The position numbers and the translations under genes were made by a program. This document shows, one piece after another, positions 1,749 to 31,700 of a DNA stretch of 64,000 nt. Position 1 is the stretch's first letter; the number at the start of each line of letters is the position of its first letter. This DNA comes from Owenia fusiformis (lineage: Eukaryota; Annelida; Polychaeta; Sabellida; Oweniidae), in assembly GCA_903813345.2 (NCBI GenBank), contig CAIIXF020000002.1:32876109-32940108 (forward strand), written 5' to 3'. The notes under the pieces are model-generated. The model was given only the letters and a program-made list of their open reading frames with translations. It had not been told where the DNA came from and ran no database searches.

Positions 1749-4700
1749 TTACAACTCAAAGTCACCAGATTCAATAACACAACAAGCAAGTCTTGTGCCA
1801 TTTCCCTTGCCATAATCGCCATATGTTTCATGGACCTGGATATAAGAATTGTCCATTAATTCAATTAAGTTAAAATTCACTACATGCATTTCATATTCAT
1901 CAAAATAGTTCCTGCCACTGACTGCCAATAACGCAGATGCGAGTAGGTTGTTACCAGATTCACCACCAGGTGGCTCGTTCGGGTCAGATAGCATGGCGGG
2001 TATAGTAGAAAGTTCCCTTTAACTTAAATTACATCTGTTTTAGTGGTTTATTTTTCATATAACCCTTATGTATCTAATAGTTATGCAAATTAAAATATGT
2101 CCAGTAAAAGAAAATGTTATCTGTCCAATACAATAAAAGATAATTAACTTTTTGTGATTTTGTAACATGGGGTCTATGGGGAATCAACCCGAACAAGAAG
2201 TCACATTTTCAAAAAAATTAAATTTTCAAAGTTGATAGACAATTTTCGAAACCATATTTTTAGATGTACTTTTATATGCAGATTTCAAATATGACATCAC
2301 TTTGAGTGAATTTTGAATATTTAATGACGTAAATCAAGATTATTTCTACTCGCATCTAGTCTATTGGTATTTAACTCTCCTTTCTAGGTGGATATAAGAG
2401 GCAAAACAGGGGCAGAGTCAGGACCAGGTAATAGGGAGGCAAATTTAGTTAGGCGAGGCAAACTTGAATTTCTGATTTAAGATTTTTCTGTAATTTTTTG
2501 TGAGGCTAATGCCTTGTCTGCATCATGCATGGCTACATCATTGTATAGTTACAGGACAGTGGGGCAAGACAACCCCTAAAATAAACTTGGTGGTCTGTCT
2601 TGCCCAATTGCCCTTCTTACCCCACTGCCCCCCATATCATTTACATATCATCTCTATATCTTATAGTTGAGACCATTATAGAACCAATAAAGTAAGCATA
2701 AATGTACTTACAACTATAGAGCGACCAATGATGTAGTTAGGGTTGGCAGGAAGTAAACTGATCTTGTCATCTACCATTACCATGACAACACTTCCTGTTG
2801 TGTCCTCCTCTATGTTCCCAAGATCTCCCACGTGTCTACAACATGTACCAGCATTCTAAATTGCTAACTTAAGTTTAAATGCAAGAGCAGAATAATTTGT
2901 ACTAAGGATAGTAACGGTGAAGTGTTATATCAGTTCCTATATGAATGTACCAACAATGTCAGCTTTCAACTATATTTAGATATCTTTTATTGAGCCATTA
3001 TGTAACTCCCCTCCCCAAAAAACACAAACTGGTGCTGAAATCAAAGCTTGCCAAATCAAAAATATGAGGAGGTAGAGGTGACCCATAACATGATGCAAGG
3101 GTTCATATGTTCAAAAATACTTAACATATCACATATATACTCACCTATCATCAGACACAGGGGAATCGTGATTGCTTGACGTAGGAATGAAATGGCCACC
3201 AGTATCAGCACAACCGCCCTCTATACTCCCTTCTGTATGGATCTGCATTCTGTGTGATACCTCATCATTATTTCTATCAAATCCCCAGAGTTCAACGTAA
3301 ATGTCAGTGTTTCCGCCAGGTAGCTAGTGAAATACCAAATAAGGCCAGTGTATTGCATTTTCAAGGTAAGAGCATTCGCTTAAACATATGATGACAATAA
3401 TTTGATCAAAGAAATAATTTTTAAAATAAGTGGCTAGCCCCCTGTTCAATTCTATTGAATGTGGACAATTCTGGTAGTTTTTCCTGACAATGTCTGTGTA
3501 AATTGTCATATTTACAATCTAGATGTCAGATTCTTATTCATGCAACTTATATTCCTACTTACATTCTGTCTGAAAAAGACGTCACCAAATATCTGCTGTC
3601 CCTCGTCAAAGTCATTGGGTTCCATTCTACACCTTGCATTGTTATACTCATCAGCTAAAAGCAGAATAATTATTCACTTAGCACTTAAGGTAGTTAGTAC
3701 ACTGGTAAAAGATGGCTTCATGTTAAAGCATAGGAGCAATATCAACCCTGTAGTGTTCATCTTTAGGACATATAAATCTGATATGATATACTTTTTTTAG
3801 TAAATTATATATATATATATATATATTATTTGGATGGATTCAATGAATTATATCCTAATAATGACATTATAATCTATTTCTGTTGCACTCTGCAAGAAAA
3901 TATTTGACTAAGTGAGCAAAAATGAATACTGTATTTTGTTTGGGGGGGTGGGGCATTTTTATACTCTATTTTTATACTCTCTTTTATACTCTTATCTCTG
4001 CAGATAACTCTACCTATATCTCATAGTATTACATAGGGAAGCATTTGTATTGAAGTCAATGGAGCTGAAGGTCGGCTATATATTCCTGTATAGCCGCCAA
4101 ACCTTTTACCATGACAATCTTATGACGTCATCAACAGTTATGTCCGTATCATTGAATATATGCCTTCGGTCTGTCGTAATATAACCCTCGCAAGCTCGGG
4201 CTATATTGGTGACAGACCTTAGGCATATATTCAATGATAGGGACATAACTGCTAAATATAGTTGTGTAGTTTGAAGCTGGTGACATACTGTAGGTATATG
4301 TGTTTGAAGTCACATAATGTGTTACCATGGTAACATATATTTTCACAAAAATCAAAGACCATGACAGTATGTCTCCCCTTCTTGGTGGTAACTAAATACA
4401 GATTGCTTGTACATTGTATAATAAAGATGTCAGGGTGTACCTTTGCAATCTGAACGTATTGGATGAACACAGCCTTCCATCCAGGAATCAAACCAGAGAC
4501 CATCCTCGCAAGTCCATTCTGTGGCTTCACCTTCCCAACAGTTGTAAAAGTGGGTGCAGTCTGTCTCATGGGGGAATCCTCCATCAGCTGGGCATTGAAA
4601 CTTGCCCCTTACAGCACTGAAAAATGCTGAAATACATTCAAATTCAATACAAGAATAACAAATATGCGATTGAGCAATTTTATTAAAGTTCCCATGTAAA

Positions 4701-5685
4701 GTTTGAAAATACTGTAGGTTTTTACTGTTTGTCATGACTTAAAAAGTTATTTAAGAAATTTTGAAAAAAGTTCAAATTTCCCACTTCTTTTCAAGTAAAA
4801 GTTGAAATTTTACATGACCTTTTAAATACCAGTGCAAAGATTGAACAGAGGACACACTATTTCAATACAAAATTGAATTTTTTTTCTCTGTCAATCTTTT
4901 CTAAATATGTTAAACTTCAAAAATAAACCAATGTTGATTGTCTAAACGGGTTAAAAGAAAGAATATATTGTGTTTTAAATATTATTGCACCACTGGTTTC
5001 TATGAGAACTAATATTTTGAAATTCATTTTTCTCTGAACTATTTTCATGTTAATTTCTCGTTTATACATCATGACATCATGTATATGAACCAATTTTCTT
5101 AATTTCGGCTAAAAAACACATGAAAATGAATGCTATGCATTGGTCTGACTTCATGCTTAATAAAAGATACCTGTGACCTCTTAAACAACATTCTTCAAAA
5201 GCCACTTTTTGAAATTATTTCACATATCACACTTTGATAAGATTGGGTAAGACTACAATATAAGCCAAAGTGGTTTAAACTTTATATGGGGCCTTTAAAT
5301 CAGAAGTTGTAAATGCAAATACTAAACATTGATTTAATATCCAAAATAAAGTACACTAAAAGTACAGAATCGTCATGTTCATTTTTACCATGAACCTGTT
5401 AAGCCCAAGTCTCCAATAATAAAATTACCAAAATACTCTCTTACCTGAGAGATTTAAGGTAGTCCCACACATGCACAACAAAAAAATGAAAAAGATGGAA
5501 TCTTGTTTCAACATTTAACAAGCAGATCTACCTTAACTTGTACATGTACTTCTACATGTACCTAAACATTTATGTTAGTCTCAACTTTTACGTAATTTCA
5601 ATTTTTGACCAACTCTGTTAAATATGAGTCTTAATATGTATGTCCTGTAAAATATAAACTTACATAAAAATATCAATAGTTTCAT
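1749..5685 (-). CDS. Secreted chitin-binding (CBM14) Cu/Zn superoxide dismutase-like protein, paralogue A (diverged)
   Basis: Six coding exons on the minus strand: 5685-5664, 4626-4441, 3654-3563, 3323-3145, 2835-2712, 1835-1749. They splice in frame to 229 residues. A signal peptide (MKLLIFLSFFSAVRG) is followed by one peritrophin-A/CBM14 domain with six cysteines (FQC, TDC, YNC, WTC, EGC, SDC), then a Cu/Zn SOD domain. The first copper histidine of the HxH motif is Gln127 (RMQIH where paralogues have GMHVH), and the aspartate four residues after the last copper histidine is Gly207 (HETYGD where paralogues have HATYDD). Other ligands, the disulphide cysteines and the active-site Arg are kept. 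Compared with B it lacks about seven residues in CBM14 and nine in the loop before the Arg. A polyadenylation signal AATAAA overlaps the stop (1744-1749). Dismutase activity is doubtful. Chitin binding and secretion look intact. Confidence 0.9.
2000..2360. repeat. Dispersed repeat in intron 5 of paralogue A
   Basis: Similar sequence occurs at about 50405-50800, sharing AAATTAAAATATGTCCAGTA, TTTTTGTGATTT, a TCAAATATGA block and a terminal TTTCTACTCGCAT. A reverse-complement echo of the end word (ATGCGAGTAGG) lies at about 1936, inside the preceding intron sequence, which suggests short inverted ends. The element class is unknown. Confidence 0.5.
4136..4250. mobile_element. 115-bp palindromic MITE in intron 2 of paralogue A
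   Basis: Nearly perfect inverted repeat beginning AGTTATGTCC and ending GGACATAACT, with arms of about 48 bp around a short GC-richer centre (CTCGCAAGCTCGGG). It is absent from the matching introns of paralogues B and C, so it inserted after duplication. No clear target-site duplication is visible. Confidence 0.7.
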
Positions 5686-5771
5686 GTTAGCCAGAGAGTT
5701 CAGCAGAGAGTGAAACCAGTTGCAGAATTTGGTAAAAGAGCATATTAAATGGTACATTAAATTATGTTCAG

Positions 5772-5827
5772 AGTAGTGACCTAGCAGTGAACAAGATATT
5801 TATGGGAATATTGCATATGGCCTGAAG
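5772..5827 (-). promoter_or_regulatory. Conserved promoter block of paralogue A
   Basis: Lies about 90-140 bp upstream of the start codon at 5685. On the minus strand it reads GGCCATATG, then an AT-rich CCATAAATATCTTG segment that could act as a TATA element, then CTAGGTCA. The same ordered words occur at the same distance upstream of paralogue B (14470-14521), while nearby sequence has diverged. Core-promoter function is inferred. Confidence 0.45.
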
Positions 5828-6546
5828 TACATTGACTTTTTCATTTCTTCTCTAGATATCTGAAAAGAGGGGGTTTCAAAATTTTCTAAACGCGCTTTAA
5901 AAAATATTATGTTAATTTCTTCTTAATTAATATCACAACTTGTTACTTTACACCAAGATAAAGATTAGACGTAAGGAATATGCTAACATAGATCAATACA
6001 TCACAACGATGTGGTGTATTTGTAAACTAGCCAGTGAACATTCTGATAAACGAAGGTGGTAAGCAAGAGACAATTATGTCTGTCATCGCTAAAGCTCTGG
6101 GGCTTTCCTTCCTCTTATATCTGAATAGACGATATGTGATACTAGTATACTACTCTGCCATCTTCTTATTGTTACAGGACTGATAAATTCTATATTCTAT
6201 TATATTAATCTTTAGTTAGGATTTATATTCAATATTGAAAAACTTGAATTGGTCTTTATAAATGGCTTCCAGGTCAAGGCCATAATACTATAATATCCTG
6301 TGAACAAAACTAACTGAATGACTCAATAACCCTTGACCTTCTAGAGAATTTTCCAATTAAATCATGTGACTGGAGATGTCCAATCAAAATGCTGTTCCAG
6401 AAAATGACAAAAATTCTGGAAATTCAGGAAAACTCTCATGTACTATTAATTGACCTCAGCAGCAGAACAAAATAATACAATACAAGATTATCAAACTCTA
6501 GGAACATTATAGTAGAGCAAAGAGCACAACATAAGTCATTAATGTG

Positions 6547-6627
6547 AAAAAGTCAGTCCACCCCACTGGGAATCGAACCCACGACCCCTCGCTTACAAGG
6601 TGATTGCTCTACCACTGAGCTATAATA
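6547..6627 (-). pseudogene. tRNA-Thr(UGU)-like pseudogene or SINE head
   Basis: The minus strand has a perfect A box (TAGCTCAGTGG), a perfect B box (GGTTCGATTCC), an anticodon loop reading CTTGTAA (anticodon TGT) and a run of five T (6547-6551) that would stop RNA polymerase III. The D arm folds and the T arm has four of five pairs. The 5' acceptor strand is replaced by AT-rich sequence that cannot pair with TGGGGTG at the 3' side, and the anticodon stem is weak. A functional tRNA is therefore unlikely. Confidence 0.65.
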
Positions 6628-6654
6628 ATAATTCTATTTTATTACTTTAGTTGA

Positions 6655-6890
6655 AAATCAAAATTTTAGATTTTCACGAAAAGTTACTGCTATTTTAAAG
6701 TAGCCACAACTTGAAAATTTCTGTTTTTGAGAAAAACAGTTCATTGATACGCATCTTTCCCTCAAAATTGAAAAAAATCTGTCAGCTAGTATTCAAGTTA
6801 TCTTCCGGACAGACAGGCGGATGGACTGACAGACAGACGGAGGGCTTCACTATATCCATATCAAACTTCTTTCTTTGGGATAAGTATTAA
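6655..6890. repeat. Dispersed repeat with GACAGACGG tail
   Basis: Ends in a GGACAGACAGGCGGATGGAC-type tract followed by CACTATATCC, AAACTTC and GGGATAA. The same order (GGACGGACGG tract, CCTATATCCC, GAACTTCG, GGGATAATAA) closes the repeat at 24000-24960, so the two belong to one family. Confidence 0.5.
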
Positions 6891-7039
6891 CTCATCTTTT
6901 CTCATATCAACATATCAACTACACTACTACCATCTTTATACCAGCCTATTTCCTCTGTGTGGATAGTAGTACACATTCTATAATTTACAAACTAGACACA
7001 CAAAATTTTAAATACTGAAGTTTTGCACTTTATTTGTAA

Positions 7040-10000
7040 CTAAAAGTCATTAGCCATGATAACACAACAAGCAAGTCTTGCGCCAGCATTTCCATTTATT
7101 AGACTTGTGCCATTTCCCAAGCCATAATCGTCATATGTTGCATGGACCTGTATATATATATGAATCCATTAAGTCAATTTAGCTAATTTCATATTTAAAT
7201 AACTCCTGCCACGGACTGCACAGTATTTAACTCTCTTTCCTTGCACATTTTCCGCCTTTATAGGTGGATATTCGAGGCAAGGACCAAAGTCAGGACTTAG
7301 AAACTGGCGAGACAAATTAAATTAGGTGAGGCACGTTGAGATAAAAGCAATATTTAAATACATGTACTATCTGATGAGAAGTGGCGTTTACACTTTCAAT
7401 GGTCCTTTTTCCATATAGCTATGAAATCTTGTTAAAGTCTCGTTTTTAATGAGATTTTAGGAGATCTACATTTTTAACCATTAAAGACTAACATTTTCTT
7501 CTATTTGATGACATATTTGAATTCTGTGTGTAATTTTCTACCAAAACAATTTTGATTTGCACCATTATTTACCTTTATTCAAATTCTAATGATTTATAGT
7601 TGTCTAAAAAAGGTCGGGCTAAATCCCCATTGACACAATGCTGAAAAACCTTTAAAAGTTCCTTTACTCTCACAAGGATCACAATTTTAATGTGATATCA
7701 CAATCCACATGTCATTAAGATTATATTGTTATATTCCAATGGTGTTTTAAGTTGATCCAAATGGAATTACTTCTTAAATCAAGAAATTAAGTGACCCTAG
7801 TAATACATTTACATGTATTCTAGCCCTACCCTAGCCCTACCAATACCCATGATGCCATCTATTTTCCATTTATATGGAAAAAGGTCAATTGACAATATTT
7901 CTGAATGAAAATTTTTCTGTTCACATTTTTGGTGAGGCAAATGCCTCGCTTGCCTCATGCATGGCTATGCCCCTGTATAGTACATGTATATATTATACCT
8001 TATATCTGTATATCTTAATTCTTGGGGCCATTATACCTAGACAGACCCACCAACTCAATAAAGTAAATGTAAATATACTTACAACTATAGAGCGACCAAT
8101 GATGTAGTTAGGGTTGGCAGGAAGTAAACTGATTTTGTCATCTATTAATACCATGACAACACTTCCTGTTGTGTCCTCCTCTATGTTCCCAAGATCTCCC
8201 ACGTGTCTACAACATACACCACCATTCTAAATTGCTAACTCCAAGTTTAATACCGGAGCAGAATATTTTGCACAAAAAGGAAGATGTCAATAAAGTGGAT
8301 ATTATCAAAAATATCAGTTAATGTCCACGCATCACAAAATGTCAGAGTTCAACTATATTTAGATGTTTTGTGTTGAGTCATTATTTAACTCCAGTCCCAA
8401 AAACAAATTTTACCACTCCTGTACTATAAAATTGTAATATGGTGACCCAGGACACCATGCAATGTTACATATGTTTGAAAGTACTTTACATGTTACATGC
8501 TCACCTATCCTCAGATGCAGGGGAACCATGATTGCTTGACGTAGGGTTAAAGTGGCCACCAGTAGCAGCACAACCGCCCTCTATACTCCCTTCTGTATGA
8601 ACGTGCATTCCATGTAACACCTCAGCATCGTTTGGATCAAATCCTCGAAGTTCAACATAAATGTCAGTGTTTCCGCCAGTTTGCTAGTAAATAAAAAGAA
8701 ATACAGAAATACAACAGATGGCCAGTTGATTGAACTGAACTGAATTAAAAGTTAGAGTTACTTCCTAAAATACAGGGTGAGCCAAAATGGTAACCTAAAT
8801 ATATATGTTAACAACACAGTCAATCAGCATGGGTTTAAGGTAACATTTGGGACGATTAATTCTTATTCAATGTTCTTTCATTCTATCAAGTAAGGCACAT
8901 TTTGGCATTTGGAGCATGTTTTGTAAATCGTGACCATTGGAGATAGACAATTGACACTTATTAGAAGGAAAGAACATTGAACAAGATGTAATTACGCCAA
9001 ATATGATTTTAAACCCATGCTATATGACTGAGTTATTAACAAACATTTGGTTGGGCTCACTTTTTTGGCTCACCCTGTATTCAGATCATTTAATTTCAGG
9101 CAATGTTTTATTCTCATGAATTTGGATAATCCTGGCAATTTTTCTGAAAATGTCTGTATATTGTCACTTATCGTCATCTCTCAGAGTCTTTCCCTCTCAG
9201 AGTCCAGCAGAATTTCTACTTACATTCTGTCTGAAAAAGACGTCACCAAATATCTGCTGTCCTGCATCAGGGTCATTTGGGGTCATTCTACATCTAGCAT
9301 TGTTATAATCACCAGCTAAAAGCAAAACATTGATTCATTTAGCACTTAAGGTAGTCATACAATTGCAAATTGTAGCTCCATGTTGTAGCATACATGTAGA
9401 GGCAATGATTTAAAAAGTGTTCAGCTTTAGGACATATGGCTCCAACTAAAAGCAAAATATTGATTCATTTAGCACTTAGGTAGTCATACAATGGCAAATT
9501 GTAGCTCCATGTTGTAGCATACATGTCGAGGCAATGATTTAAAAAGTGTTCAGCTTTAGGACAAATGGCTCCGTGTTAAAGCAAAGCATAGTAGCAACAA
9601 CAACTTAGTGCTCATCTTTAAGACTTTGATGACATCAAACTTATAAAAAATAAGATTTTACATTTATACATTATTTGGATGGATTCAATTATAATTCAAT
9701 TATACCAAAATGATGACATTTTTATCTACAAAACTTTGCATGTTATATAATTGATTAAAAAACATATGGAAAATGTGCAGAAATGAAAAAACATTTATGT
9801 TCAAATTTATTTGGGGTTAGGTATTTTAATATATATCACTGTATCATAACTATGGTATATTTCTTTCTTTTGACATGACAATACATCTAGTTGGATATTC
9901 AGTTGCATAATAGAGGAGTTTCTAAATCTCCCAAATTCTCGTCTATTCATGTGATTTTAAGAGATTTCCACTTTTTACCTCTAATTACTTTTCTTTCTTT

Positions 10001-13000
10001 TTAATAGCAAATTTGAATTCAGAGAAAAGTTTTCTCCAATAACAGCTGTGATTTAAACAGTCATGTCATTTTATTCATTTTCCATGACAGTTTAAAAAAA
10101 ACTTGGGCCAAATCTCCATTGATGCAATGCTAAAATTCTTTAAAATCTTGGTTTATTTGTATGGCAACCAACATTTTCGTGTTTAATCACAATATGTACA
10201 TTGACAGGGTCATCCAATAGTATGCCATTCGAGTTCCATACATTCTACCAACACTTTTTGATAAATCATGAAATTAAGTGACTTTTGCAAGTTTCTAGCA
10301 TCACGGTAGGGATTGTCATCACGTGACCTTCGCAACTGATGGTGTCTGAACAAGGCGTAAGATTTTCTCGATTAAGCAAGAAAAACAAATAATTTTCATA
10401 TTTATACTTTGTTAAATGCTTCAAATCCCGCCCCACTTATGCATACTATCTCAGTCTTTCAAATGAACCTAAAGGACGATTCTCGGTTTGGAGAACGAAG
10501 TTCATCAATCTAAATGAGCATTATCCCTGCTTCGGACAAATTTGATTTTTTTTACATAATATAGATTTGAATGTCTTCTTTTGAATAGTCATAATTTAAT
10601 TTGGGTAATATTTCTAGATTTTTCGCAAAAAATATATTAGCGCAGTACACTGATGAACTTCTTTCCCCAAATCGAGACTTGTATTTTATTGAATCGGTCT
10701 AATTGAGCGTTATCCCTGCTTCAGAACAATTTGTTATTTTTACAACTTGTAGATTTAAATGTCCTCTTTTGAATATTCATAGTTTAATTTGGGTAATATT
10801 TCTATATTTTCAATGAAAAAAATTATTAGCCCCGGAGACTGTTCTCCAAACCGAGAATCGTCCTTTACAAGCAGAGGACGCATATTTTTTGAGATATCAC
10901 TGTTTTTTATTTCGAAAAATGATGGTGTCTGAACAACTCTTAAATTCTGCATGATGGTGTCTGTACAAATTTTAAAATACACTACTTGGAAAGTAGTCCT
11001 CGTGTTTTCGTGTGTCTTTTAAATTCATCTGCTTCTTTCCAATGTGTTTAACCGAAATCAACCTAGAATTGTGATGTTTGCCTGTTATCACTGCCATCCA
11101 TTGGTTGAATTTCCAACATTCACTGAACGATTTGCAAATAATGTGTGGGACAATCATCCATCAGAGGAATTTAGATACATCGTGTATTGTCACCAGAAAC
11201 TGGGCGATTAAGTTATTTGATCAGACGTTATTTATCCAATATTACAAAAGATTACTTGATGTACTTGAATAAAACAATATAAAATGAATCCATCCATTAG
11301 ACTGCCCAGGGATGGTATTATTCAGCATCTTCGCACGCTCAGTCTTCACTGCGTTCCGACGGGAGCCTAGTGAACGAAGATGATTATTCAGTAAAGCCAG
11401 TCACTTTTTGAGAGGCCAGAGAAATCTGACCAATCAAAATACAGGATTTCTTCGTGATGTCATTGTCCTTATTAAAGTCAATTGCTAGATGCAAACTTAT
11501 GTAACATTAATAGGGTCTGGCTTCTGCATTGTATAATAACTTATTAAATATAGGCTTTGTATAAAAAAAACTTGTACCTTATGCCCACGTACCCACGTAC
11601 GTGAGTCGTGATACAGTCTTTGAAGGGTTCAATTTTAAAAGCTTTAAAGGATTATCCGATCAATTTTTTAAAAATAGCGCCATTCAAAGGCTCGTCCAAT
11701 AGGGAAAATCTACGCTAAATTAGGTTTTAATATGTCGGGGATTTGCAAAATGGAATTCTGTGCTTCATTTTGTTTAATCACAGTAAGGGGAACGATGATT
11801 TTAGTCATCCCAAAACGCGAAAGTGTAATTGTTTGCTCAATTGTGGATGGTCATTCCGAATTTGATGACGGGGAGAGTAGTACACCCATAAAGACAAGGT
11901 TGTAATGCAACCTAAATGTGGCAATATAGTCACACTTTAAAGACGACTTCCTGGAAGTCCCCAGCAAATGAAAAACGTGACAATTTTAGTGAATATTGCT
12001 TCTACTGAACGAGCATTAATAGATAAAAGATCCGTCACACTAAGTATATAAAACTGCCCCCAGGTCATTCATGACCATTATGACATATAATATGGTATTT
12101 AGCAGGGCGTTAATTATGGCATAGTGTTCAGTGTTATTGAGGCCATAGTGACCTTGTAAAGGTCAAGTCAGTGCATATCTGATAATAAAAGATTCTTGCG
12201 TGCAAAATCATCGTTTACAAAATTTAAAATGTGATATTATGATAAAGAATGTTGCAAAGGACAATTTTGACCTTAACCTTTTATTTTCATTTCATTTTTT
12301 TGTTTTATTATTTTATTTGGTTCCATTGACTTAGCATACGGATATCAGCATGTATCAACTTGATGATATCCCGATGTTAAGTCAATTATTCTTTCAAATG
12401 AGCTGGGTATAATGCTCCTTCTTAACGTTGGGACAGCCTTATCTTGACATTCTAGGCAGGTTACCAATTTCCCTTGAGTTATTATTCAATTGTATAGTTA
12501 TATTCTTAATCCACTTTGTACATTTGTAGCACTAGTATAGTCAACATCCAAAATGGTACAAAATATTTCGAAGAAAATGCTCGACATATACACATATTTC
12601 AAAGCAAATGCGTGACATACGGAACTCGCGTTTGGTGACATTTCATTGAATAATTCTATTAAAGGTCTAGTTTTTAAATCTTTTACAGATTTTCTTTGTA
12701 AGATAATAGGAATTGTCTAAATTAACATGTATTTATGATGAGTCAAAACAATCAGTTCATTTCTCCAAACAGGAGAGCCATCTTTTATGTAAATTCAAAT
12801 GCTGTTACCCACAGGGCCAATAATGCTTTGGCTTAGGCCCTGTTTATGCTGTAAATTAAGACTGTTTAAATAAAAGAACCATAAAAACTAAACTCGCGTG
12901 AAAAGTCCGAACGGAATGCGTTCGCCTTTTTTCGACGTGCACTAATGCATTTATATTTAACAAATTGAACCCTTCAAAGAATGTATCATGCCCCACGTAC

Positions 13001-14389
13001 GTGGGTCGGGACGTGGGTACGAGGCACTAGGTTTTTATACAAAGCCTTGAATATACGAGAGTACAGGAATGCATAGTATATAATAAACAATTACACATGA
13101 AAACATGGAGACTGGTATCCATGTCGTGTATTCAAAAAATTTGTACAGACACCATCATCAAGAATTTTAGAGTTGTTCAGACACCATCATTTTCCGAAAC
13201 GAAAAACAGTCATATCTCAAATAATATGCGTCCTCTGCTTGTCAATTTAGGTTCATTTGAAAGACTGAGATAGTATACATAAGTGGGGAGAAACTTGACG
13301 CTGTTAACAAAATATAAATATGAAAAATATTCATTTATCTGGCTTAACCGAGAAAATCGTACAGCTTGTTCAGACACCATCAATTACGAAGGTCATGTGA
13401 TGACAATCCCCACCGTGAGCATTAAGTCAATGGAAGTTTGGACCAAGCAAATCAAAGACAATCAAGGGAGACATCTATTATGCAAGCTTTATTCAGCTTT
13501 ATCCAGCTATTTAGAAACTACATGTATATACTATTAGACTTCATGGCAAGTTTTATTTTAATATCATATTTCAGAATAGTCGTGAAGTTTAAAGCAGGGG
13601 ACATAGGTACAATCATATGTTTGAAGTCATATAAGGTTTTGCCATGGTAACAGATATTTTCACAAAAATTCATTAAAGGTGAAGGCCATGTCATGGTGGT
13701 GACTAAATAAATAAAATACAATGCTTGTGCATTTTCAGATATAGATGTCAGCATGTACCTTTGCAATCTGAACGTATTGGGTGAACACATCCTTGCGTCC
13801 AGGAATCAAACCAGAGACCATCCTCACAAGTCCATTCTGTGGCTTCACCCTCCCAACAGTTGTAAAAGCGGGTGCAATCTGTCTCATGGGCAAATCCCCC
13901 ATCAATTGGGTTTCCATCAATGTCAACTGGGCATTCAAACTGGCCCCTTACAGCAGTGACAAATGCTAAAATACAAAACTAACAAAAATGTAATTGAGCA
14001 ATTGCAATAAATGAGAAATTGAAAATGACAATAGTTAACCATTGTATTGAAGAGAGAGACAGGCAATAATACACTCACTTGAGAGATTTAAGATATTCCC
14101 ACAATGTTGAAAAAATCAGGAAATATAATTCCAACAACTGATCACGAAATGCAACAACATTTTGAATTACATGTACAGTGTGTAGTCAACAAGATTTATA
14201 AGTATCAACAAATTAAATGTGAAAATATCATGCCCATTTCATTAATTATTAGTAAATTTCCTTCAACATTTAACATTTTACTTAACTTTATTTCAAATTT
14301 TGACAACTTTGTCAAATAAGGGTCTTACTTATGTTTTTTCATTGTCAAATTTTCCATTGTCACTTACCAAAGAATATCAATAGTTTCAT
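7040..14389 (-). CDS. Secreted chitin-binding (CBM14) Cu/Zn superoxide dismutase, paralogue B
   Basis: Six coding exons on the minus strand: 14389-14368, 13965-13759, 9315-9224, 8683-8505, 8206-8083, 7147-7040. They give 243 residues in frame. Signal peptide MKLLIFFAFVTAVRG; CBM14 domain at about residues 16-76 with six cysteines and aromatic FYNCW; Cu/Zn SOD domain at about 90-243. Ligands by alignment to SOD1: His134, His136, His151 and His210 (copper); His151, His159, His168 and Asp171 (zinc). Asp214 matches the metal-bridging Asp124, Arg232 the active-site Arg143, and Cys145/Cys235 the conserved disulphide. It should convert superoxide to peroxide and oxygen outside the cell, held on chitin. 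An NGT sequon lies in the electrostatic loop. The second intron is swollen to 4.4 kb by the element at 10302-13417. AATAAA follows the stop (7029-7034). Confidence 0.93.
8773..9077. mobile_element. Mariner-like MITE (TA target), 305 bp
   Basis: Flanked by TA at 8771-8772 and 9078-9079. Terminal inverted repeats start CAGGGTGAGCCAAAA, and similarity between the two arms continues inwards through a shared GCATGGGTTTAA block. It is non-autonomous and sits in an intron of paralogue B. Confidence 0.8.
9309..9572. repeat. Two direct copies of a 130-bp intronic segment
   Basis: The segment from AGCTAAAAGCAAAA to TTAGGACATATGGCTCC is repeated almost exactly. A single diverged copy is present at the same intron position of paralogue A (about 3652-3780), so this is a local tandem duplication in B only. 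Confidence 0.7.
10302..13417. mobile_element. 3.1-kb inverted-repeat DNA transposon with CACGGTG-type ends
   Basis: Ends are CACGGTAGGGATTGTCATCA on the left and CACGGTGGGGATTGTCATCA on the right (reverse complement). A 5-bp direct repeat AGCAT flanks them (10297-10301 and 13418-13422). Each arm carries three copies of GATGGTGTCTGAACAA or GATGGTGTCTGTACAA, a pattern typical of subterminal transposase-binding sites. A second pair of inverted blocks (about 11545-11640 and 12960-13050; CCACGTACGTG, CTTTGAAGGGTTCAA) lies further in. No transposase frame is seen in the centre, so it is non-autonomous. Five-base duplications and a CAC-starting heptamer recall Transib/ProtoRAG-type elements, but this is only a resemblance. 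Confidence 0.82.
10472..10865. mobile_element. 394-bp MITE nested in the left arm of the 3.1-kb element
   Basis: Terminal inverted repeats AAGGACGATTCTCGGTTTGG are identical for over 20 bp, flanked by TA (10470-10471 and 10866-10867). The right arm of the host element (about 13240-13252) lacks the insertion, so this is a later insertion. Inside are two direct copies of a block containing ATTATCCCTGCTTC or GTTATCCCTGCTTC. Confidence 0.8.
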
Positions 14390-14469
14390 GTTAGCCAGAG
14401 TGAAGCCTGGGTTGCAGTATTTGTTAACAGAGCACATTAATGGTGCATTAATTAAAATATATTTAAGAA

Positions 14470-14521
14470 TTTTGACCTAGCATGACCAAGATATCAATGA
14501 GAATACTCCATATGGCCTGAA
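14470..14521 (-). promoter_or_regulatory. Conserved promoter block of paralogue B
   Basis: On the minus strand it reads GGCCATATGG, then TTGATATCTTGG, then CTAGGTCA, about 80-130 bp upstream of the start at 14389, matching the block upstream of paralogue A. It lies only about 175 bp from the 2.3-kb transposon at 14697. I do not see the block upstream of paralogue C. Confidence 0.4.
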
Positions 14522-14696
14522 GCCCTCAAGTCCATTGGACTCTTTTATTTTTGCAGCGGTTCAAGGTGGAACACGTGAAACAAATTATTATTAGTTTAAG
14601 GTCGATATAAAGATGGCAGATGTGTAGTCCATATGTCGATTTTCTCTAGATATCTGTAGAAGTGATATACTGTTCTGCAATTTTTTTCTATCACCC

Positions 14697-17018
14697 CAGG
14701 GCCGTCAGATGGGGGGGGGGGTGCGATGGGTGCGACCGCACCCCCTTTGTCAACCCCCAAAAAGAATTTGAAAAAAAAAATTGAAAATATTTTTTTTTGA
14801 AATATTTTCATTGACTCATACACTTTGAAAGTACCCAAAAAGCACCAAATAGCATCTTAAAATTGTAAAATTTTCTAGGGGTATTGGCCACCCCTCACGC
14901 CCCCCACAAAACGATGGAAAAGTTCTAAAGGATAGGTATAGATATGGAGAACTGAATTCAACAATGTTTTTCTCTTAAACCAATCATTGAAAACATTCTG
15001 TAAAATAACATGGTATTTTATGTAATGTTGGCTGATTGACAACAATTTAATGCGAAAATTATTTAGAAATATTTTATATAACTGTTTTTGTTAACATTTT
15101 TTGTTTTTTTAGCCTAATTGTTTTTGCTCCTTTCTACCAATTCTTGAGAATGAAATAAAATGTCTTTTCGAACCTTGTTGGAACAAATTAGCATATACAA
15201 CATGTTTTTAGACCTCTCAATATTAAAGTTATACAAAGGAATTTTGGGTTGATTTTAAAAAAGTATTCAAAAAATTAAAACAAAATCCCCCAAAAATAGA
15301 TAATAAAAATCAAGAAAAAACTTTTATTTCATTAACAAGATACTTTTTTAAAATCAACCAAAATTTATTTTGTACAATAACAATATTGAGAGACCTAAAC
15401 ATGTTGTGTTTATGTCGTTTTGTTCCAATGAGGTTCGGAAAGATGTTTCATTTCACTCTGGAAACATGATACCAAGAACAAAACAAGTGTTTGATGTGTT
15501 TTTTAAAACAATATAGATGAAAGTATGTATATCTATTTCAAATCATATTGCTACCATTCAAAAGATGGCCATTGAATTGACAATTTGTAAGATTTTCAGA
15601 AATTTTTGATGACTGGTTTAAGAGAAACGTGTGTTCAAAAAGTTCGCCATATCGATACCCATTCTTTATTTTAGTGTTTTGTCTCAGACACTTTAAAAGT
15701 GCCCAGACATCATCAAATAGCTCCTTGATATAGTTAGTGTTTCTGGGGGACTAACACTTGCTCCCCCTCTTGCATCTTGCACTTGCATCCCCATCCCACC
15801 TCCCCCTCTGGCGCCCCCCCCCCCCCTTGACCCCCCCCCAAAAAAAATAAAATTGGATAAAAGTTGTGATTTTCTCAAATTCTTTAATTGACTCATACAC
15901 TTTGAAAGTGCCCAGAAAGCACCAAATAGCGTCGGAAAATTGTAGAATTTTCTAGGGGAAGTGGGCCACCCCTCACACCCCAAACAAAACAATGGAAAAG
16001 TTCTGAATTTGTTTTATGTATTGTCTCAGACACTTTTAAATTGCCCAGACATCATCAAATAGCTCCTTGATATAGTTAATGATTCTGGGAGACTAACACT
16101 TACTCGCCCTCTGGTATCCTCACTCCACCTCCCCCTCTGGCAGCCCCCCCCCCTTGACACCCCCCAAAAAAATTGAAAAGGAAATTAAGATTTTTCAAAT
16201 TTTCTATTGACTCATACGCTTTGAAAGTGCCAAGAAAGCACCAAATAGCATGTTAAAATTGTAAAATTTTCTTGGGAAATAAGCACTTTTAGGCACAGAC
16301 ACTTTTAAAGTGCCAAGACTTCATCGAATAGCACCTTGATATTGTAAATGTTTCTGGGGGACTGATATGGGGGACAAACACTTGGTCCACCTCTGGCACC
16401 CCAACCCCACCTCTGGCACCCCTCCCTCCCCTTTGACACTCCCAAAATTTGAATTTGAATGTTTTTATTGACTAATACACTTTAAAAGTGCCCAGAAGCA
16501 CCAAATATCATCTTTAAATTTTAAAATTTTCTAGGAGAGTTAGCCACCCCTCACATCCCCCACAAAACAAAAGAAAATATTCTGAATTTCATTTTTAACT
16601 GTGCAGACATCATCAAATAGCACCTTGGTATGATCAATGTGGGGACAACCCCTTGCTCCCCCTCTGGCACCCCACCCAACTTCACCCTCTCATCCTTTTT
16701 GACACCCCCAAAAGAATTTGAAAAAAAATTCACATTTTTCTTATTGACTCATACACTTTGAAAGTGCCCAGAAAGCACCAAATAGCATCTCAAAACTGTA
16801 CAATTTTCTAGGGGGAGTGGACCACTCCTCACACCCCCCACAAAACAATTGGAACGTTTTGAAGTTGCACTTGTTAATTCCAAACCGATCAAGGGAGTAA
16901 CCGACCCCCCCCCCCCTCTGACTTACGCGATTTGATTTACGCAGCAAAAAAATGACAATTTTATATTCTCTTTAGTAAAAACCGCACCCCCCTTGGAGAA
17001 AAGTGTCTTACGGGCCTG
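14697..17018. mobile_element. 2.3-kb DNA transposon with internal tandem repeats, 5-bp TSD CACCC (copy 1)
   Basis: Left end CAGGGCCGTCAGATG, right end (inverted) CAGGCCCGTAAGACA, flanked by CACCC at 14692-14696 and 17019-17023. The interior is a run of roughly 260-320-bp units, each with an ACTTTGAAAGTGCCCAGAAA half and an ACTTTTAAAGTGCCCAGACA half plus C-rich tracts. There is no transposase. A second copy is at 37615-39222, and short relatives with similar ends are at 20063, 25020 and 55017. It sits between paralogues B and C. Confidence 0.85.
14928..15666. mobile_element. 739-bp foldback MITE nested in the 2.3-kb element
   Basis: Inverted arms start AAGGATAGGTATAGATATGG on the left and AAGAATGGGTATCGATATGG on the right (reverse complement), flanked by TA (14926-14927 and 15667-15668). 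The matching position in the copy at 37615 (about 37875) is uninterrupted, which gives an empty site. Confidence 0.75.
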
Positions 17019-17176
17019 CACCCTATACCTGTATGCAAATTCTATAAATTCTGCATTAAATGTTAGATCATTCAAATTTTTCGCTCTTGAGGGGCAACAT
17101 TTTAGGAGGCCTGGTAGGTGGTAAAATACAACAAAGTGAAAAATATATGTATAGTATTCATTCTTAAACTGATTTA

Positions 17177-19383
17177 TTAAAAGTCATCAGCCATGATAAC
17201 ACAACAAGCAAGTCTCGCGCCAGCATTTCCATTTATCAGACTTGTGCCATTTCCCAAGCCATAATCGTCATATGTTGCGTGGACCTGTAGGCAAATTATT
17301 GTAAATTTCCATTATAGATTCCTTTTCAATACATTTCAAAATATATTTCTCTGGGGGGACATGCAAGTTGAACATATGTTTTGGGCACTTTTATATTCTT
17401 TATGTTTGGGTCTTCACCAATCACTATAACCCATTATATATGGAAAGGTACTTACAACTATAGCGCGACCAATGATGTAGTTAGGGTTGACAGGAAGTAA
17501 ACTGATCATGTCATCAACTATTACCATGGAGACACTTCCTGTTGTATCTTCCTCAATGTTCCCAAGATCTCCCACATGTCTAAAACATGTAGAAAAATCC
17601 AAATAATGGATGTAGGATATTCTGGTAAATATGCAATGAGGGATGACAATTTGTCTCAAAGTTGCGCTGTATTCAATATTGTGTGACCAACCTTCTTTAT
17701 ATCGCAAATACTGCCATTGAAATAGTTCTAGTTTTTCCATGATATTGAATCCCTTGCATTTGATGACATGTGGGACATTATGCAAGATTCATACACCATA
17801 CTATTAAACATTATAATACAGCATATTTACTTGAAAACTACTCCCAACATTCTGAATCACTCACCTTTCATCAGACGCAGGTGACCCATGATTGCTTGAC
17901 ATAGGATTAAAATGGCCACCAGTAGCAGCACAACCGCCCTCTATACTCCCTTCTGTATGGACGTGCATTCCATGTAACAACTCACCATCATTTGGATCAA
18001 ATCCCCGGAGTTGAACATAAATGTCGCTGACTCCCCCAGTTTTCTTATAACATAGAGAATGGATAAACATGTTTTAGGAAATCTATTTGAGCAAGTTTTC
18101 AAATTACAGGGCCAATAGTGCCTAGGCGTATGCCCTGTACTACTGTATTGTATGACGTATTATCATGAAATAAAGAAAACATATGAAAGAAAAGTTTTCA
18201 AAATGAGCCTTCAGTTTACATTACTGAACCTCAAATTAATACTGAAGCAAGTTGTCCTTTTCATAAATAAATTTCATTTTTCTGTAATCGGAAACTTTTT
18301 TCTGCTTAATTATAAACTGTAAATATAAAGCATATCATTGTTCAAACCAACCCCTTATACATAAGCAGAAATGTTCCACTTACATTCTGTCTGAATTGGA
18401 GACCACCAAATATCTGCTGGCCTTCATTAGGATCATTGGAAACGATGTCACAGTATGCAAAGTTGAACTCTTCCTCTGTAAAATACAAGTTCATTACCCG
18501 CATAATATATGGTCACCCTGTAGATTTTATATTTTGGCCCACTCTGTACAATTGTATCTATGAACCACATAATATACATTTTATTTTGTCACTTTGTTTC
18601 CTAATATTTCAGTTGTTTCTCAATGACTGCATTTTTCATATCATGTTACAATCAGAATCAAATACATAATCTACACCCAAAGGCATTCCAGTGCCATCTA
18701 TACTGATAATACATCCTACAACTCATGCCTTTTCATTTACATTAACCAATTTGATATTTCAATTATTCTGAAATTCATTTCAGATTTCCTGCAAAACATT
18801 TCAACTGAATTTAGGCGATTATAAAGCAGTGACCAATGCACAGCCTATAAGCAAATGCAGTGTTTTAAGTTAACTCCTCTAAAAATCCGACAGCAACTAA
18901 AATACATGTTTGATGTAAGTTTGTGATGTCATAATATACCTTTGCAATCAGACTCGATTGGGTTAACACAGCTCATCGACCATGAATCGAACCAGAGACC
19001 ACCCTCACAAGACCATTCTACAGGATCGCCTAACCAACAATTATAATATCGGGCGCAGTCTGTCTCGTGTGGGTAGTTTCCATCAATAGGGACTCCATCA
19101 ATGTCTACTGGGCATTCGAACTGGCCACTTACAACATTAACAAATGCTGTAATAAGATGCAATACAACATTGGCTTTCAAGAGAAATCTAGGTACATACA
19201 GTTCAAAAATAATCCAAGTATTAAAATGAGCTAAAAAATTAAAAACAAATTTAAAAACAAAATTAAAAATTAAACAACAGAATAGCCTACATGTCATTAT
19301 ATATGTTACTTGAGATAAAAATAATTACAAAATGTACACTAAATTATGTAAATAGACTTACCTAGAAAACTGAATAATTTCAT
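17177..19383 (-). CDS. Secreted chitin-binding (CBM14) Cu/Zn superoxide dismutase, paralogue C
   Basis: Six coding exons on the minus strand: 19383-19362, 19146-18940, 18475-18384, 18043-17865, 17579-17456, 17284-17177. They give 243 residues in frame, with exon lengths identical to paralogue B. Signal peptide MKLFSFLAFVNVVSG; CBM14 domain with six cysteines (FEC, TDC, YNC, WSC, MSC, SDC); SOD domain with HVH (134, 136), GGHF, NHG, RHVGDLGN, VHATYDDYG and GARLACC, so all copper and zinc ligands, the metal-bridging Asp and the active-site Arg are present. It is the most compact member (2.2 kb) and the most divergent in sequence, while A and B are closer to each other. AATAAA overlaps the stop codon. 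Extracellular superoxide dismutation on chitin is inferred. Confidence 0.92.
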
Positions 19384-25700: not shown

Positions 25701-28700
25701 AGGAAATTAACATAAATAGAATAAATACATAACTTAGACTTAAAGTTCAATAGTTATACAGGGCATTAACATGTAAAACCTCACCACCTGCCATTTGTTA
25801 GACACCAAACACTAATCATCGAGCATCAACCAACCAACACGGTCCACAACAAAGTTTCTAGTGGTGACAAAACTAGTCTCTGCTTCAAGCTCATCTGGCC
25901 CTAATTTTAATTTAATAATTCATATTGAGGCTTCTACTTTTTCTTTAATTCATATTGAGGCTTCTACTCTTTCTTTAATTCATATTGAGGCTTCTACTAT
26001 TTCTTTACTGGAAATCAAAGGCATTTCAAGTCTACTCTTAGAGAACCTATGCAGCATTACCAGGAAACAACAATATTTTTGTAACCTAAATGTCAGGTGC
26101 TACCTATCATATGACCTAATATAGATTTATATGTATTAAAGTTTACCTTATCAATTTCTTGTTTCTGCTTTTTTATATTGGAGACGATTTCCATGATCCT
26201 CCTAGTGTACGCTGACCTATTCACATCCTTTGTCATACGTTCATACTCTGTAACCTTTGAATTGAAAAAAAATAAATCAATAAATTACAGAGTAAATGTT
26301 TGAAAAATATTAAAACCTATTAGAAAAGAAACTGGAGAGTTATTGTAAATTTACAACAGACCATATCTTATTTTTTAAGGGGGAGGGAGTCAACCCAAGA
26401 TTCGTTTTTACTTTTATCAAAAATTGCCATATTCCCTTACCAATTGTTTATAAATATCTTCTTTAGTTCTGGCATCAGCAGCGACATCTTTCATCTTTTC
26501 TCTAAATGCTTTAATTTCTTCCAACTTTTTCTCAGCTTCAGACTACAATTCAAATCATTCTCTATGTAATTGTAAAACAACCAAATTATCAAAGGCCTCG
26601 TCAAAACATCCCTCGAGATTATGCACACGAGACTCAGGGACTTCAATGGACCCTCCTCCTCCACATTGAATTTGCAATGTTTGAAATGAGGTCGTTTTAT
26701 ACTTATTAGTACAATGAGTTTCATAAAATAAGACTATATAAAGCCCGGTATACACCAATGGGGCAAAATCCCACTTGCCCCATCGAGTCCCATCTTGCCC
26801 CATCGAATCCCAATTTGCCCCATCGAATCCCACGAAGTCCCATGGGACCTTGATGACTTTGCCCCATCGTGCCACATGGAGTCCCATCAAGCCCCATGGA
26901 GTCCCATCAAATCCCACCGTGCCCCATTGGTGTATGTCGGGCTTCACACAACACGTCATATGAGCGAAAATCCCTCGATGCCCCATGGAAAGAATGAACA
27001 TGTTCATTCTCGATGGGACTCCATGGGACTCCGTGGGATTTTGCCCCATCTTGCCCCATCGAGTCCCACGTGGGACTTCATGGGACCTCATGGGACCTCG
27101 TGGGACTCGATGGGGCAAGATGGGGCAAAATCCCAAGAGGTCCCATGGAGTCCCACGGACTTCATGGGGCAAGATCCCAAAAGGTCCCACGAGGTCCCAC
27201 GCAATGTTAAGTCTATGGTGGCCCCAACTTGCCCCATTGGTGTATACCGGGCTTAAGGCAATAACATTGTATCATTAACATTGTAAGTTATTGCAAATTG
27301 TTATAGATGCAGCATGCCGACCACCAACTGCCAAACAATAGTTGGACACCATAACAATGTGTCACCACTTTTGTTATAAATCACTTTACCTCTCTATTTT
27401 CATTAAGTGCTTTCATCTCCCGATATTTCTCCACTAGAGGAACCCGATGTTTCTCCCATTGGTTGGCTAAACTGACCAATCGCTGAGCACTTGTGTCCAC
27501 CACTGACTACAACATCGTAAATAAATTATTAATTACAAAATGATATGCATGTTACATTACTAGCAAAAACCTTTCTTTAAAACAGACAATTTTGTTATAA
27601 AGATCATTGTCATCGAATTAAATACAGTATTACATATTTTTACACACTTCTCTAGAATTGTTCAATACACATTAAACACAAAAGTAAACACATATCTTTA
27701 TCAAACTATTTGAGAACCAATGCATTCTTTTTACCAATACATGTACCAGGCTATCATGAGTGACATAAAACTTTCAAAATCTGAATTGGGACACCTTTTC
27801 ACTCAAGTGGCAATCAGAATTTCAACTGCTTTATACGTATAGAACATGTTATAATAATAACAGTGAATATATCCGAAATTGTTCATTGGTTAGGTGTATG
27901 ATTAAATAGATTAAAATTCCTCAATTCACTAACCTTTTATAGCATTACTATCTAGCTTTCGATATGAAATCCAGTGCTCTGATTGTGATAAGAAGTATAT
28001 AGGAGAGACAGGGAGAGCCATAGGAATGAGAATAAAAGAACACAGAGACGCCTTAAGAATTAACCCAGACAAGTCAGCAATCGCTCAACATTCATTTGAT
28101 GAAGCGCATAAGATAAACTGGGATTATAGAATTATTGACTCAGAGTCTAAATACTTTGATCGAAAGATAAAGGAAGCGATACATATTCATAAATATAAAC
28201 CTGAACTTAACAGAGACTTAGGATATAAGGTTTCCCCGAGTCTACTTGAGGTTGCTAGGTCAAAGATCAAGTCAAGGTCAAATCTACCAGTTTCCCGCCA
28301 AATTCAGACATCTTGAGAAAGGCAACAGGAGTTGTCGAAAGCTAGATAGAAATGCTATAAAAGGTTAGTGAATTGAGGAATTTTAATCTATTTAATAACA
28401 GTGAACCCTGTAAAGTGGAACACCTCTAGAAGTTGAACACCTCTAGAAGTGGAACACTTCAGAGTTCCAAGACCAACTGACTTAATGTTAAATAACCTCT
28501 ATCAGTGTAACACCTCCAAAGTGGTAAACTTGAGAGGGGTACCAAAAGTGTTCCACACTTAAACAGGTTTTACTGTTGTACAACATTTATTATACTTAAG
28601 CTCACCTGTAATTTTGCTATGTTATTATCAGCATCAGGTAAAAGGTCCAGTGTTCTTTTCTTCACTTTATATACAGTTTCTTTCTCTTTGTTCTTGGTGG

Positions 28701-31700
28701 CCTCAGTTGCGATGATCTCTTCCATCTAAGAAATGGTGGGAATAGAATATTGTAAAATGTTGACAATGAGATATTGTAAAAGGTTGTGATTGGAATATTG
28801 TAAAATCTTGACAATGAGATATTGTAAAAGGTTGTGATTGGAATATTGCAAAATGTTGACAATGAGATATTGTAAAAGGTTGTGATTGGAATATTGTAAA
28901 TTGTTGACAATGAGATATTGTAAAAGGTTGTGATTGGAATATTGTAAATTGTTGACAATGAGACATTGTAAAAGGTTGTGATTGGAATATTGTAAATTGT
29001 TGACAATGAGATATTGTAAAAGGTTGTGATTGGAATATTGTAAAATGTTGACAATGAGATATTGTAAAAGGTTGTGATTGGAACATTGCAAAATGTTGAC
29101 AATGAGATATTGTAAAAGGTTGCGATTGGAATATTGTAAATTGTTGACAATGAGATATTGTAAAAGATTGTGATTGGAATATTGTAAATTGTTGACAATG
29201 AGATATTGTAAAAGGTTGTGATTGGAATATGGTAAATTGTTGACAATGAGATATTGTAAAAGGTTGTGATTGGAATATTGTAAATTGTTGACAATGAGAT
29301 ATTGTAAAAGGTTGTGATTGGAATATTGTAAATTGTTGACAATGAGACATTGTAAAGGGTTGTGATTGGAATATTGTAAATTGTTGACAATGAGATATTG
29401 TAAAAGGTTGCGATTGGAATATTGCAAAATGTTGACAATGAGATATTGTAAAAGGTTGTGATTGGAATATTGTAAATTGTTGACAATGAGATATTGTAAA
29501 AGGTTGTGATTGGAATATTGTAAATTGTTGACAATGAGACATTGTAAAAGGTTGTGATTGGAATATTGTAAAATGTTGACAATGAGATATTGTAAAAGGT
29601 TGTAATTGGAATATTGTACAATTTTGACAATGACTTAGTATTGTAAAGGGTGTGCAATGAAACATTGTAAAATAATCACAACAAAGTAATGTAAAATGTT
29701 GGTGGTACTTCTATAAAAAGTTGACAATGAAATATTGTAAATTGTTGCCAACAAAGAATTGTAAAGGTTGATATTGAAATGTTGGAAGTGTTGGCATTAA
29801 AATAGTTTTTATTATAAATTGTGACCAAATGATTTTTATTTGGGCTGTACATGTTTGGCAACACACTGCAGCAGACTCAATGATATTTATTAATGCAGCC
29901 TGATACATTTTTTATCGTATGGATGGTGTAAATTAAACTTTCCAAAAAATTATCATTCCTTGTCATCTACATGTACCCCTTCCCTCTCACAAAAAGTAAC
30001 TGTTTTGGACCATATTATAGTTAGTTAAGTATACATTAAAATGTGTACATTTGGACAATACCCACCACTCCCTTTAAGTATACTTAATACATGTAAGTAC
30101 TTTATCAAGCTCACCTGTTGACTGCTTGCTGTAAACTTTCTTATCTCAATATCTAAATTCTCAAAATCAGTGGCAATCCTTTCGAGTTGTTCTTGAAGTT
30201 TCTCAATCTCTTCCTCACGTTTAGCCTTCAATTCCTCTTCAGTGTTAGCAGTAGGGTCAACAGTCATTTGGCTGCCTGGGACATCCTAGAACAAGAGAAT
30301 ATGTCACAATGGCTTTTTCTGTAAGCTCGTCACTTTGTGTGTATCTAAGATCTAAAGCTGGTTTGCTCGTATATGTTTCTGAATACAGTAAAACCTGTAT
30401 ATCCAAATACCTTTCTTATTTAACCAAATCTCAATATGCACGCTTCTTTCAGTCCAAATTTTGTAATCTCCCATTTAATCCATTTAGATTCCCTTTTATT
30501 TAACAATTTGATATAGCATTATGAACACATTTTATGCATAATGCACATATAGAGCAAACAAATATTCTCAATTGTGTTGCTTTAAATGAAAACGAAATAA
30601 TTTCAGAACATACAAATTACCAAAGTAGCCATATTTTTCTCTAAATAGACGGATACTCAATTAAACTTGGAATATTGATATGTGCCATTGTTTTACATTC
30701 CCTTTAAAAATTTAAATTAGAAAGTCAAAAAACACTAAATTCAAGAGCCTTTTTCTCAGAACTTATTGATCGACCTGGTATAAGCAAATGGTAGAGAGGA
30801 CTTATAAAAATGCATTTTCTTTCAAGTTTCTGTTTTTATAAAATGACTCATACATACCTGTGTAAATTGTAATTTTTCTGCATGAGTAAACCTTGAGCCT
30901 TTAGTTTTGCCCTGCAGTCCTGACCTTTCACTAATGCTGTTAATGATATCATTCAAGTCTTGAGGAGTTTTCTGTGCATTTTCTTTTAATTTCACAGATT
31001 CTTTGATATTGTCCTTGATTCGTTTTTGAAGTCGGTCTCGTTTTTTCGCTAAATACTCCTGGAATAAAGAAGCAAAGTATAGCATTTCGAAGCTTAATTA
31101 ATTGCTAATTGCAAAAAAATATTTCTGGTTGCCCATCTTGCATGGTCCCATTCTCTTTTTTCAATAATTTCAGAATCCGAGATTTGTGTCAATGTCTAAT
31201 AATTGAGTATGTTACATATTATGAATTTTATATTTTGAGGTTATTCAGAGATGAGAATTATAGCTATAAGTAGAAGAATTGGAGATCTGCCCCATACATC
31301 TAAACGCCACATGCAAAACAGCCATACACACTTGAACTGAACACAAGCTTGAAAAGTTAAAAGAAGGCAGAGATGCCTAAAACAAACAACTGCAATTATT
31401 TTAAAATATACGAGCAAGCAATGTCCCAAAACAAGGAAGTGTGGGAATTACACTATTATAAGACAAAGCAGCAGCTACGGGTCATCTGACACACCTTTAG
31501 AAAAAGTAATCATTCACAAACCTCCTTCGTTAACCTTGAGGCAAGACCAAGCTGATTCCACTCCTGATCCCATTCATGTTGTGCTGTCAGATAGGTGGCG
31601 TTGTTTTCCAAGATGGACGCTGCAAGGTCATCTCGATGTACAGGCTGGGTTAAAATATATGGCATGTGTTTTGTGTAGTATGTTTTAACATCTGAAAAGA

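Follow-up and report, generated by a model that had tools for sequence, protein, structure and literature searches.

We identified a tandem array of three genes in the oweniid polychaete Owenia fusiformis, each of which joins a signal-like N terminus, a CBM14 domain and a Cu/Zn superoxide dismutase (SOD) domain in a single reading frame. The array lies within a 64,000-nucleotide stretch of DNA, hereafter the window (assembly GCA_903813345.2, contig CAIIXF020000002.1, positions 32,876,109 to 32,940,108; C2:32876109-32940108), in a genome of 498 Mb and 525 contigs. It occupies window positions 1749-19383 of the minus strand, with the stop codon of gene A at one end and the start codon of gene C at the other. 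Building on the domain content, reading frame, exon phases, metal ligands and divergence observed here, we propose, with a probability of about 0.62, that these genes encode secreted Cu/Zn SODs into which a CBM14 exon was inserted at a phase-1 intron, that the gene was duplicated in tandem, and that the products are docked on chitin with a role similar to that of SOD3. The CBM14 exon would have been added between the signal peptide and the enzyme before duplication. The domain would then most likely dock the enzyme on the chitin of a secreted structure such as the cuticle, tube, bristles or gut lining, where the SOD would turn superoxide into hydrogen peroxide and oxygen on the spot. This scheme assumes that both domains act as is typical of their families, CBM14 in docking and SOD in dismutation. 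The roles on chitin suggested previously, namely cross-linking, mineral protection and defense, would be plausible.

Gene models and domain content

The three neighboring genes, A (5685-1749), B (14389-7040) and C (19383-17177), are all on the minus strand, and in each the CBM14 domain precedes the SOD domain, as a preliminary description of this DNA had proposed. Models based on splice sites and phases contained six exons per gene, and the spliced frames were free of stops up to the terminal codon. All 15 introns had GT-AG borders as read from the sequence, and the phases (1,1,0,2,0) were common to the three genes. The predicted products have 229 (A) and 243 (B and C) residues. Exon 1 encodes a hydrophobic start, exon 2 the end of the signal-like segment together with CBM14, and exons 3-6 the SOD domain. 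In gene C, exon 1 (19362-19383) carries the start codon and the early signal-like peptide MKLFSFL and ends in the donor AG/GTAAGT; it is followed by exon 2 with the six-Cys CBM14 (18940-19146, phase 1 at both ends), exon 3 with the SOD start (18384-18475), exon 4 with H46, H48, H63 and H71 (17865-18043), exon 5 with H80 and D83 (17456-17579) and exon 6 with H120, D124, R143, C146 and the stop codon (17177-17284). Gene B has the same layout: exon 1 (14368-14389; MKLLIFF, donor TG/GTAAGT), exon 2 (13759-13965, phase 1 at both ends), exon 3 with the SOD start (9224-9315), which follows a 4.4-kb intron, exon 4 with H46, H48, H63 and H71 (8505-8683), exon 5 with H80 and D83 (8083-8206) and exon 6 with H120, D124, R143, C146 and the stop codon (7040-7147). 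The junction proposed previously for this gene, from 13759 to 9315, agrees with the phase-1 splice model. In gene A, exon 1 (5664-5685; MKLLIFL) ends in a weaker site, AT/GTAAGT, and sits within a stretch 72% identical to the exon 1 region of gene B. Exon 2 of gene A (4441-4626) encodes the signal-like end and CBM14; it is 7 residues shorter than that of gene B and keeps all six Cys residues. Its SOD domain starts in exon 3 (3563-3654) and continues in exon 4 (3145-3323), where the copper ligand His46 is replaced by Gln, exon 5 (2712-2835; H80, D83) and exon 6 (1749-1835), in which Asp124 is Gly and nine residues are gone before Arg143.

The single-frame combination of the three segments, also claimed previously, was supported by Pfam searches, in which both CBM_14 and Sod_Cu scored above the curated cut-offs in A, B and C and in a fourth, unlinked gene, designated D. 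Sod_Cu scores for the four genes ranged from 96.6 to 143.1 bits (cut-off 28.9; E-values of 2e-27 to 7.5e-39 in A-C), and CBM_14 scores from 35.3 to 47.4 bits (cut-off 22.1; E-values of 2e-12 to 2e-11 in A-C, namely 2e-11 in A, 2.2e-12 in B and 1.8e-11 in C). The query for gene A began after the first seven residues and had Ala at residue 8, which is Ser in the later model. Six CBM14 cysteines were present in each of A, B and C and, by eye, also in D. Each of the four models contained one SOD stretch, with the zinc ligands retained, and a short, hydrophobic signal-like N terminus as judged by hydropathy and by eye. When the CBM14 domain of gene B was compared with solved chains, the closest was chitinase 6g9c (8.7e-5), followed by weaker matches to the polyphenol-binding protein 8in3 (0.005), tachycitin 1dqc (0.095), chitotriosidase 6so0 (0.36) and the chitin binding beak protein 7bwe (0.81).

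A genome-wide profile search revealed 25 Sod_Cu matches, which were grouped into about 14 loci, and at least 131 CBM_14 matches (150 of 337 candidates scored); a stricter threshold for CBM_14 added nothing. Matches to both domains were distributed over C1-C12 and some small contigs. With at least 131 CBM14 matches and 13 SOD loci distributed uniformly, approximately 0.009 same-strand CBM14-SOD pairs would be expected within 5 kb by chance, and four were observed. Three of these are tandem copies, so that they represent at most two independent events; given the expectation of 0.009, chance adjacency is nevertheless a poor explanation.

The copies are clearly distinct, with synonymous divergence (dS) of 0.24 (A-B), 0.47 (B-C) and 0.42 (A-C); these values rule out haplotype duplication or alleles. 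For the CBM14 domain, the ratio of nonsynonymous to synonymous divergence (dN/dS) was 0.20 between A and B (54 codons) and 0.18 between B and C (61 codons), the latter being rough as dS was 1.07. The corresponding ratios for the SOD domain were 0.41 (A-B, 158 codons) and 0.35 (B-C). All these ratios come from pairwise comparisons and carry no significance test, which is the first of several points that weigh against our interpretation. Splicing, secretion, chitin binding, activity and tissue are predictions from the gene models. Beyond 6g9c and 8in3, the matches in PDB were intermixed with antibody chains of similar E-values, and structure prediction of the CBM14 exon with AlphaFold yielded no useful information (predicted local distance difference test score of 47). 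Moreover, strong chitin binding is not universal among CBM14 domains.

Two other readings accept the docked enzyme and differ in what it is for. In one, the enzyme would act mainly as a source of hydrogen peroxide at a chitin surface, where peroxidases would use it to cross-link matrix proteins, and protection from superoxide would not be its chief task. Peroxide is a product of SOD chemistry, and according to passages of a study of a tubeworm tube proteome (PMC8476170), a chorion peroxidase-like protein is present there, together with CBM14-type (ChtBD2) proteins; however, neither "superoxide" nor "sod" occurs as a word start in the main text of that paper, and we consider this reading possible but on the unlikely side. 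In the other, the proteins would act mainly in immunity or at the gut lining, binding fungal or dietary chitin and shaping the oxidative burst there. Immune and gut-lining proteins commonly use CBM14, and at least 131 matches to this domain are available in the genome. Extracellular SODs of a beetle have also been linked to microbial challenge (PMC4828634). We regard an immune or gut function, too, as a possibility with the odds against it.

Gene D and the origin of the fusion

Gene D, located on C1, is the fourth CBM14-SOD gene and is unlinked to the array; its existence shows that this architecture reaches beyond the array. Its product begins with a signal-like segment, followed by approximately 95 Asp/Glu-rich residues, CBM14, a linker that is Ser/Pro/Thr-rich by eye, a phase-1 intron and SOD. 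A further SOD gene, C7, is informative here: a single phase-1 intron connects its signal-like exon directly to the SOD exon, and CBM14 is absent. The CBM14 exon of A-C, which is flanked by two phase-1 introns and measures 207 nucleotides in B and C and 186 nucleotides in A, occupies the place of this C7 intron, which points to exon insertion, or exon shuffling, as the origin of the fusion.

Whether gene D shares this origin is less clear. Its CBM14 lies inside the first exon, in contrast to the separate phase-1 exon of A-C, and the extra phase-0 intron found within the SOD domain of A-C is absent from both D and C7. The SOD domain of D is 71% identical to that of C7, 48-49% to those of B and C, 51% to that of C5 and 49% to human SOD1. 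Because its SOD domain is closest to that of a gene without CBM14, the fusion may have arisen twice. In searches with the CBM14 domain of gene C, D ranked 10th of 32 matches, and with that of gene D, C ranked 15th of 20, with A and B absent among the matches listed; thus, no pairing of D with A-C emerged from these searches, the domain being short. Phylogenetic analysis grouped D with C7 with support of 58/42 and also allowed A, B, C and D as one clade (approximately unbiased test, p-AU 0.27). The tree was rooted with human SOD1 and carried a long-branch warning, and the rows for C5, C152_L007 and human SOD1 were partial; a first tree of 11 rows had included the long branch C3b_L006, and this row and the short SOD1_L009 were left out of the later one. 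These comparisons suggest two separate CBM14-SOD fusions, with the tree leaving one versus two undecided. An extended version of this idea, in which CBM14 was gained twice (as a phase-1 exon in A-C and within the first exon in D), the products form an equivalent on chitin of the heparin-bound SOD3 of vertebrates, peroxide is delivered at a site of chitin curing or defense, and paralog A serves as a noncatalytic, chitin-binding competitor or scaffold, appears unlikely to us.

We further checked the other SOD loci for upstream modules. At 8 further loci, frames of at least 30 residues with at least 5 Cys were listed upstream of SOD; no CBM14 was recognized by eye in the resulting 28 frames, 5 of which were sent to Pfam, although a split or weak CBM14 could escape such inspection. 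None of the 8 loci had a CBM14 among the genome-wide matches listed (at least 131), nor did two loci checked by this match list only, namely SOD1 on C11 and the gene with several SOD domains at C5:18744860. Small cysteine-rich exon-like frames, for example CRLPDNGAYLHVKQSAVVNGDSCKCVKGPDTSDPYLKTYWHLEC, occur upstream of the SOD genes L005 (minus strand), L007, L008 and L006. The four such frames sent to Pfam had no match; it is possible that they represent a second N-terminal module on SODs. The C5 gene (G000, C5:18744860-18746197) has three Sod_Cu matches within a single open frame of 700 residues and is a candidate copper-only SOD repeat protein. Seven pattern matches were found in viral contigs, none of which was a relative.

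Metal sites and the fate of paralog A

Residues were numbered by alignment to a human SOD1 fragment, in which position 83 is an engineered Ser. Genes B, C and D all keep the seven metal ligands (His46, 48, 63, 71, 80, 120 and Asp83), Arg143 and the C57-C146 pair, and we predict enzyme activity for the products of B and C. Gene A retains the other six ligands, Arg143 and both Cys residues alongside the His46 replacement. It also evolved faster, with 18 private changes in the SOD domain versus 3 in B (C as outgroup; chi-square 10.7). Changes at invariant columns numbered 5 of 41 in A, 5 of 46 in C7, 3 of 44 in C, 1 of 42 in D and none of 41 in B; for A, the columns counted were those without variation among B, C, D, C7 and C5, and C5 itself is partial and hence not comparable. 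Since C7 also changes 5 of 46 columns, this count alone does not set A apart; A stands out because of the loss of the copper ligand and of loop residues and the excess of changes over B. Paralog A has probably lost enzyme activity, which would make it a pseudoenzyme that binds chitin, or it may be an altered yet active enzyme. Pseudogene remains were rejected for B and C; in gene A the frame is intact and the SOD site damaged. The earlier label of three Cu/Zn SODs therefore holds for B and C, which keep all seven ligands, and is too strong for A, which lost the copper ligand, Asp124 and the nine residues before Arg143.

The state of gene A could also be taken to mean that the SOD domains are mostly non-enzymatic, the proteins being metal-binding or structural chitin proteins. 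Oyster dominin provides a precedent for a non-enzymatic SOD, as described in passages of PMC12784942, and gene A, with its lost ligand, Asp124 and loop and its accelerated SOD domain, would fit this pattern. However, the intact ligands, Arg143 and disulfide cysteines of B, C and D and the SOD-domain dN/dS of 0.35 between B and C argue against it, and we find it quite unlikely that most of these domains are non-catalytic.

It is very improbable that the fusion is an artifact of the gene models, with a CBM14 gene lying beside a SOD gene three times and transcribed apart from it: the long intron between the CBM14 and SOD exons of gene B with its 129-bp repeat of the exon 3 acceptor region, the in-frame Met in exon 3 of A and B, and the stop reached after a few codons by an unspliced CBM14 exon are compatible with this, but order, strand and intron phases are identical in A, B and C, the unlinked gene D has an in-frame phase-1 CBM14-SOD join, and a start at exon 3 would give a SOD without a signal peptide and is not available in gene C, whose exon 3 lacks a Met.

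The repeat in intron 2 of gene B consists of 2.3 copies of a 129-bp unit at 9312-9608 and duplicates the exon 3 acceptor region; near 9446 it creates a second acceptor, TTTTAG, and splicing to this site in phase 1 would lead to a stop at approximately 9341. A CBM14-free alternative first exon, suggested by a signal-like stretch that precedes exon 3 at 3796-3677 in A and at 9657-9559 in B, was unsupported; the introns of A and B are 68% identical anyway around this stretch, and by eye B has no clean donor.

Other features of the window lie at higher coordinates than the array. Two exons of an SLC6-type sodium:neurotransmitter symporter gene (47072-47389 and 63373-63726; Pfam SNF, 1.4e-19 and 3.5e-20) are on the plus strand, opposite to the array. 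An RNase H frame of 326 residues (33986-34963, plus strand; Pfam, 1.4e-15) is probably a retrotransposon piece. A GIY-YIG-like frame (27933-28313, plus strand) scored below the Pfam cut-off (18.5 versus 22.6 bits) and may derive from a Penelope-like element. Two long minisatellites were also present, at 28745-29633 (48-bp unit, 18.5 copies) and 57097-57642 (30-bp unit, 18.2 copies).

Comparison with known systems

A literature search, which covered papers and not animal protein databases, turned up no named CBM14-SOD fusion in the titles, openings of abstracts and text passages of the papers listed, and a phrase search returned 0 papers. In the passages of PMC5536051 both Pfam names are present, assigned to different proteins, and "superoxide" has 0 occurrences in PMC8217771. 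According to passages of a survey of 19 animal species, 10 Cu/Zn SODs from seven species have atypical extra domains, which these passages do not name, and SOD3 is paraphyletic (PMC9524095); in the main text of this survey no word begins with "chitin", "carbohydrate" or "CBM", and CBM14 could be among the extra domains.

Several known SOD-related proteins share individual features with the CBM14-SODs. The fusion of SOD with a beta-propeller lactonase in Deinococcus radiodurans (PMC12362111) is likewise a natural Cu/Zn SOD fusion; however, it is bacterial and its partner is a beta-propeller instead of a chitin-binding module. CSRP, Rsod and insect SOD6 are, similarly, animal Sod_Cu proteins, many of which are secreted. 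BmSOD6 differs in its membrane segment and in the number of its SOD domains, which is three (passages of PMC9046187), compared to one SOD domain here, and oyster CSRPs differ in having mostly four SOD domains with changed zinc histidines (passages of PMC12784942), whereas the zinc ligands are kept here. Oyster dominin/cavortin is a secreted SOD-like protein that has lost metal ligands, and paralog A, having lost one of seven, may be comparable; in dominin, by contrast, five metal-coordinating histidines are changed, as given in passages of the same paper, the main text of which contains neither "chitin" nor "CBM".

Vertebrate SOD3 is a secreted Cu/Zn SOD fixed on an extracellular polysaccharide matrix, to which the secretion and the docking on chitin predicted here from sequence would correspond. 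The RLACC end and the extra N-terminal cysteine of the CBM14-SODs are similar to SOD3. Vertebrate SOD3 is held on heparan sulfate via a basic C-terminal tail. The distribution of SOD3 in the matrix relies on its C-terminal heparin-binding domain (PMC12774472). In contrast, the CBM14-SODs have an N-terminal CBM14 and no basic tail: the segments after LACC(V/I)I, which are ESGDFEL (A), MANDF (B), MADDF (C) and GQTDSSSAWE (D), are short and without a basic cluster, so that heparin retention of the SOD3 type is not expected. The location of a SOD decides which reactions are protected or fed. If our interpretation is true, these genes would offer a direct genetic handle on the supply of peroxide to the curing of tubes, cuticle or bristles. 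One genome contains a comparison set consisting of C7, which lacks CBM14, three fusions whose metal sites are intact (B, C and D), and A, which is probably inactive. A chitin-fixed SOD would represent, beside the SOD fixed on heparan sulfate in vertebrates, a second solution for animals with chitin matrices.

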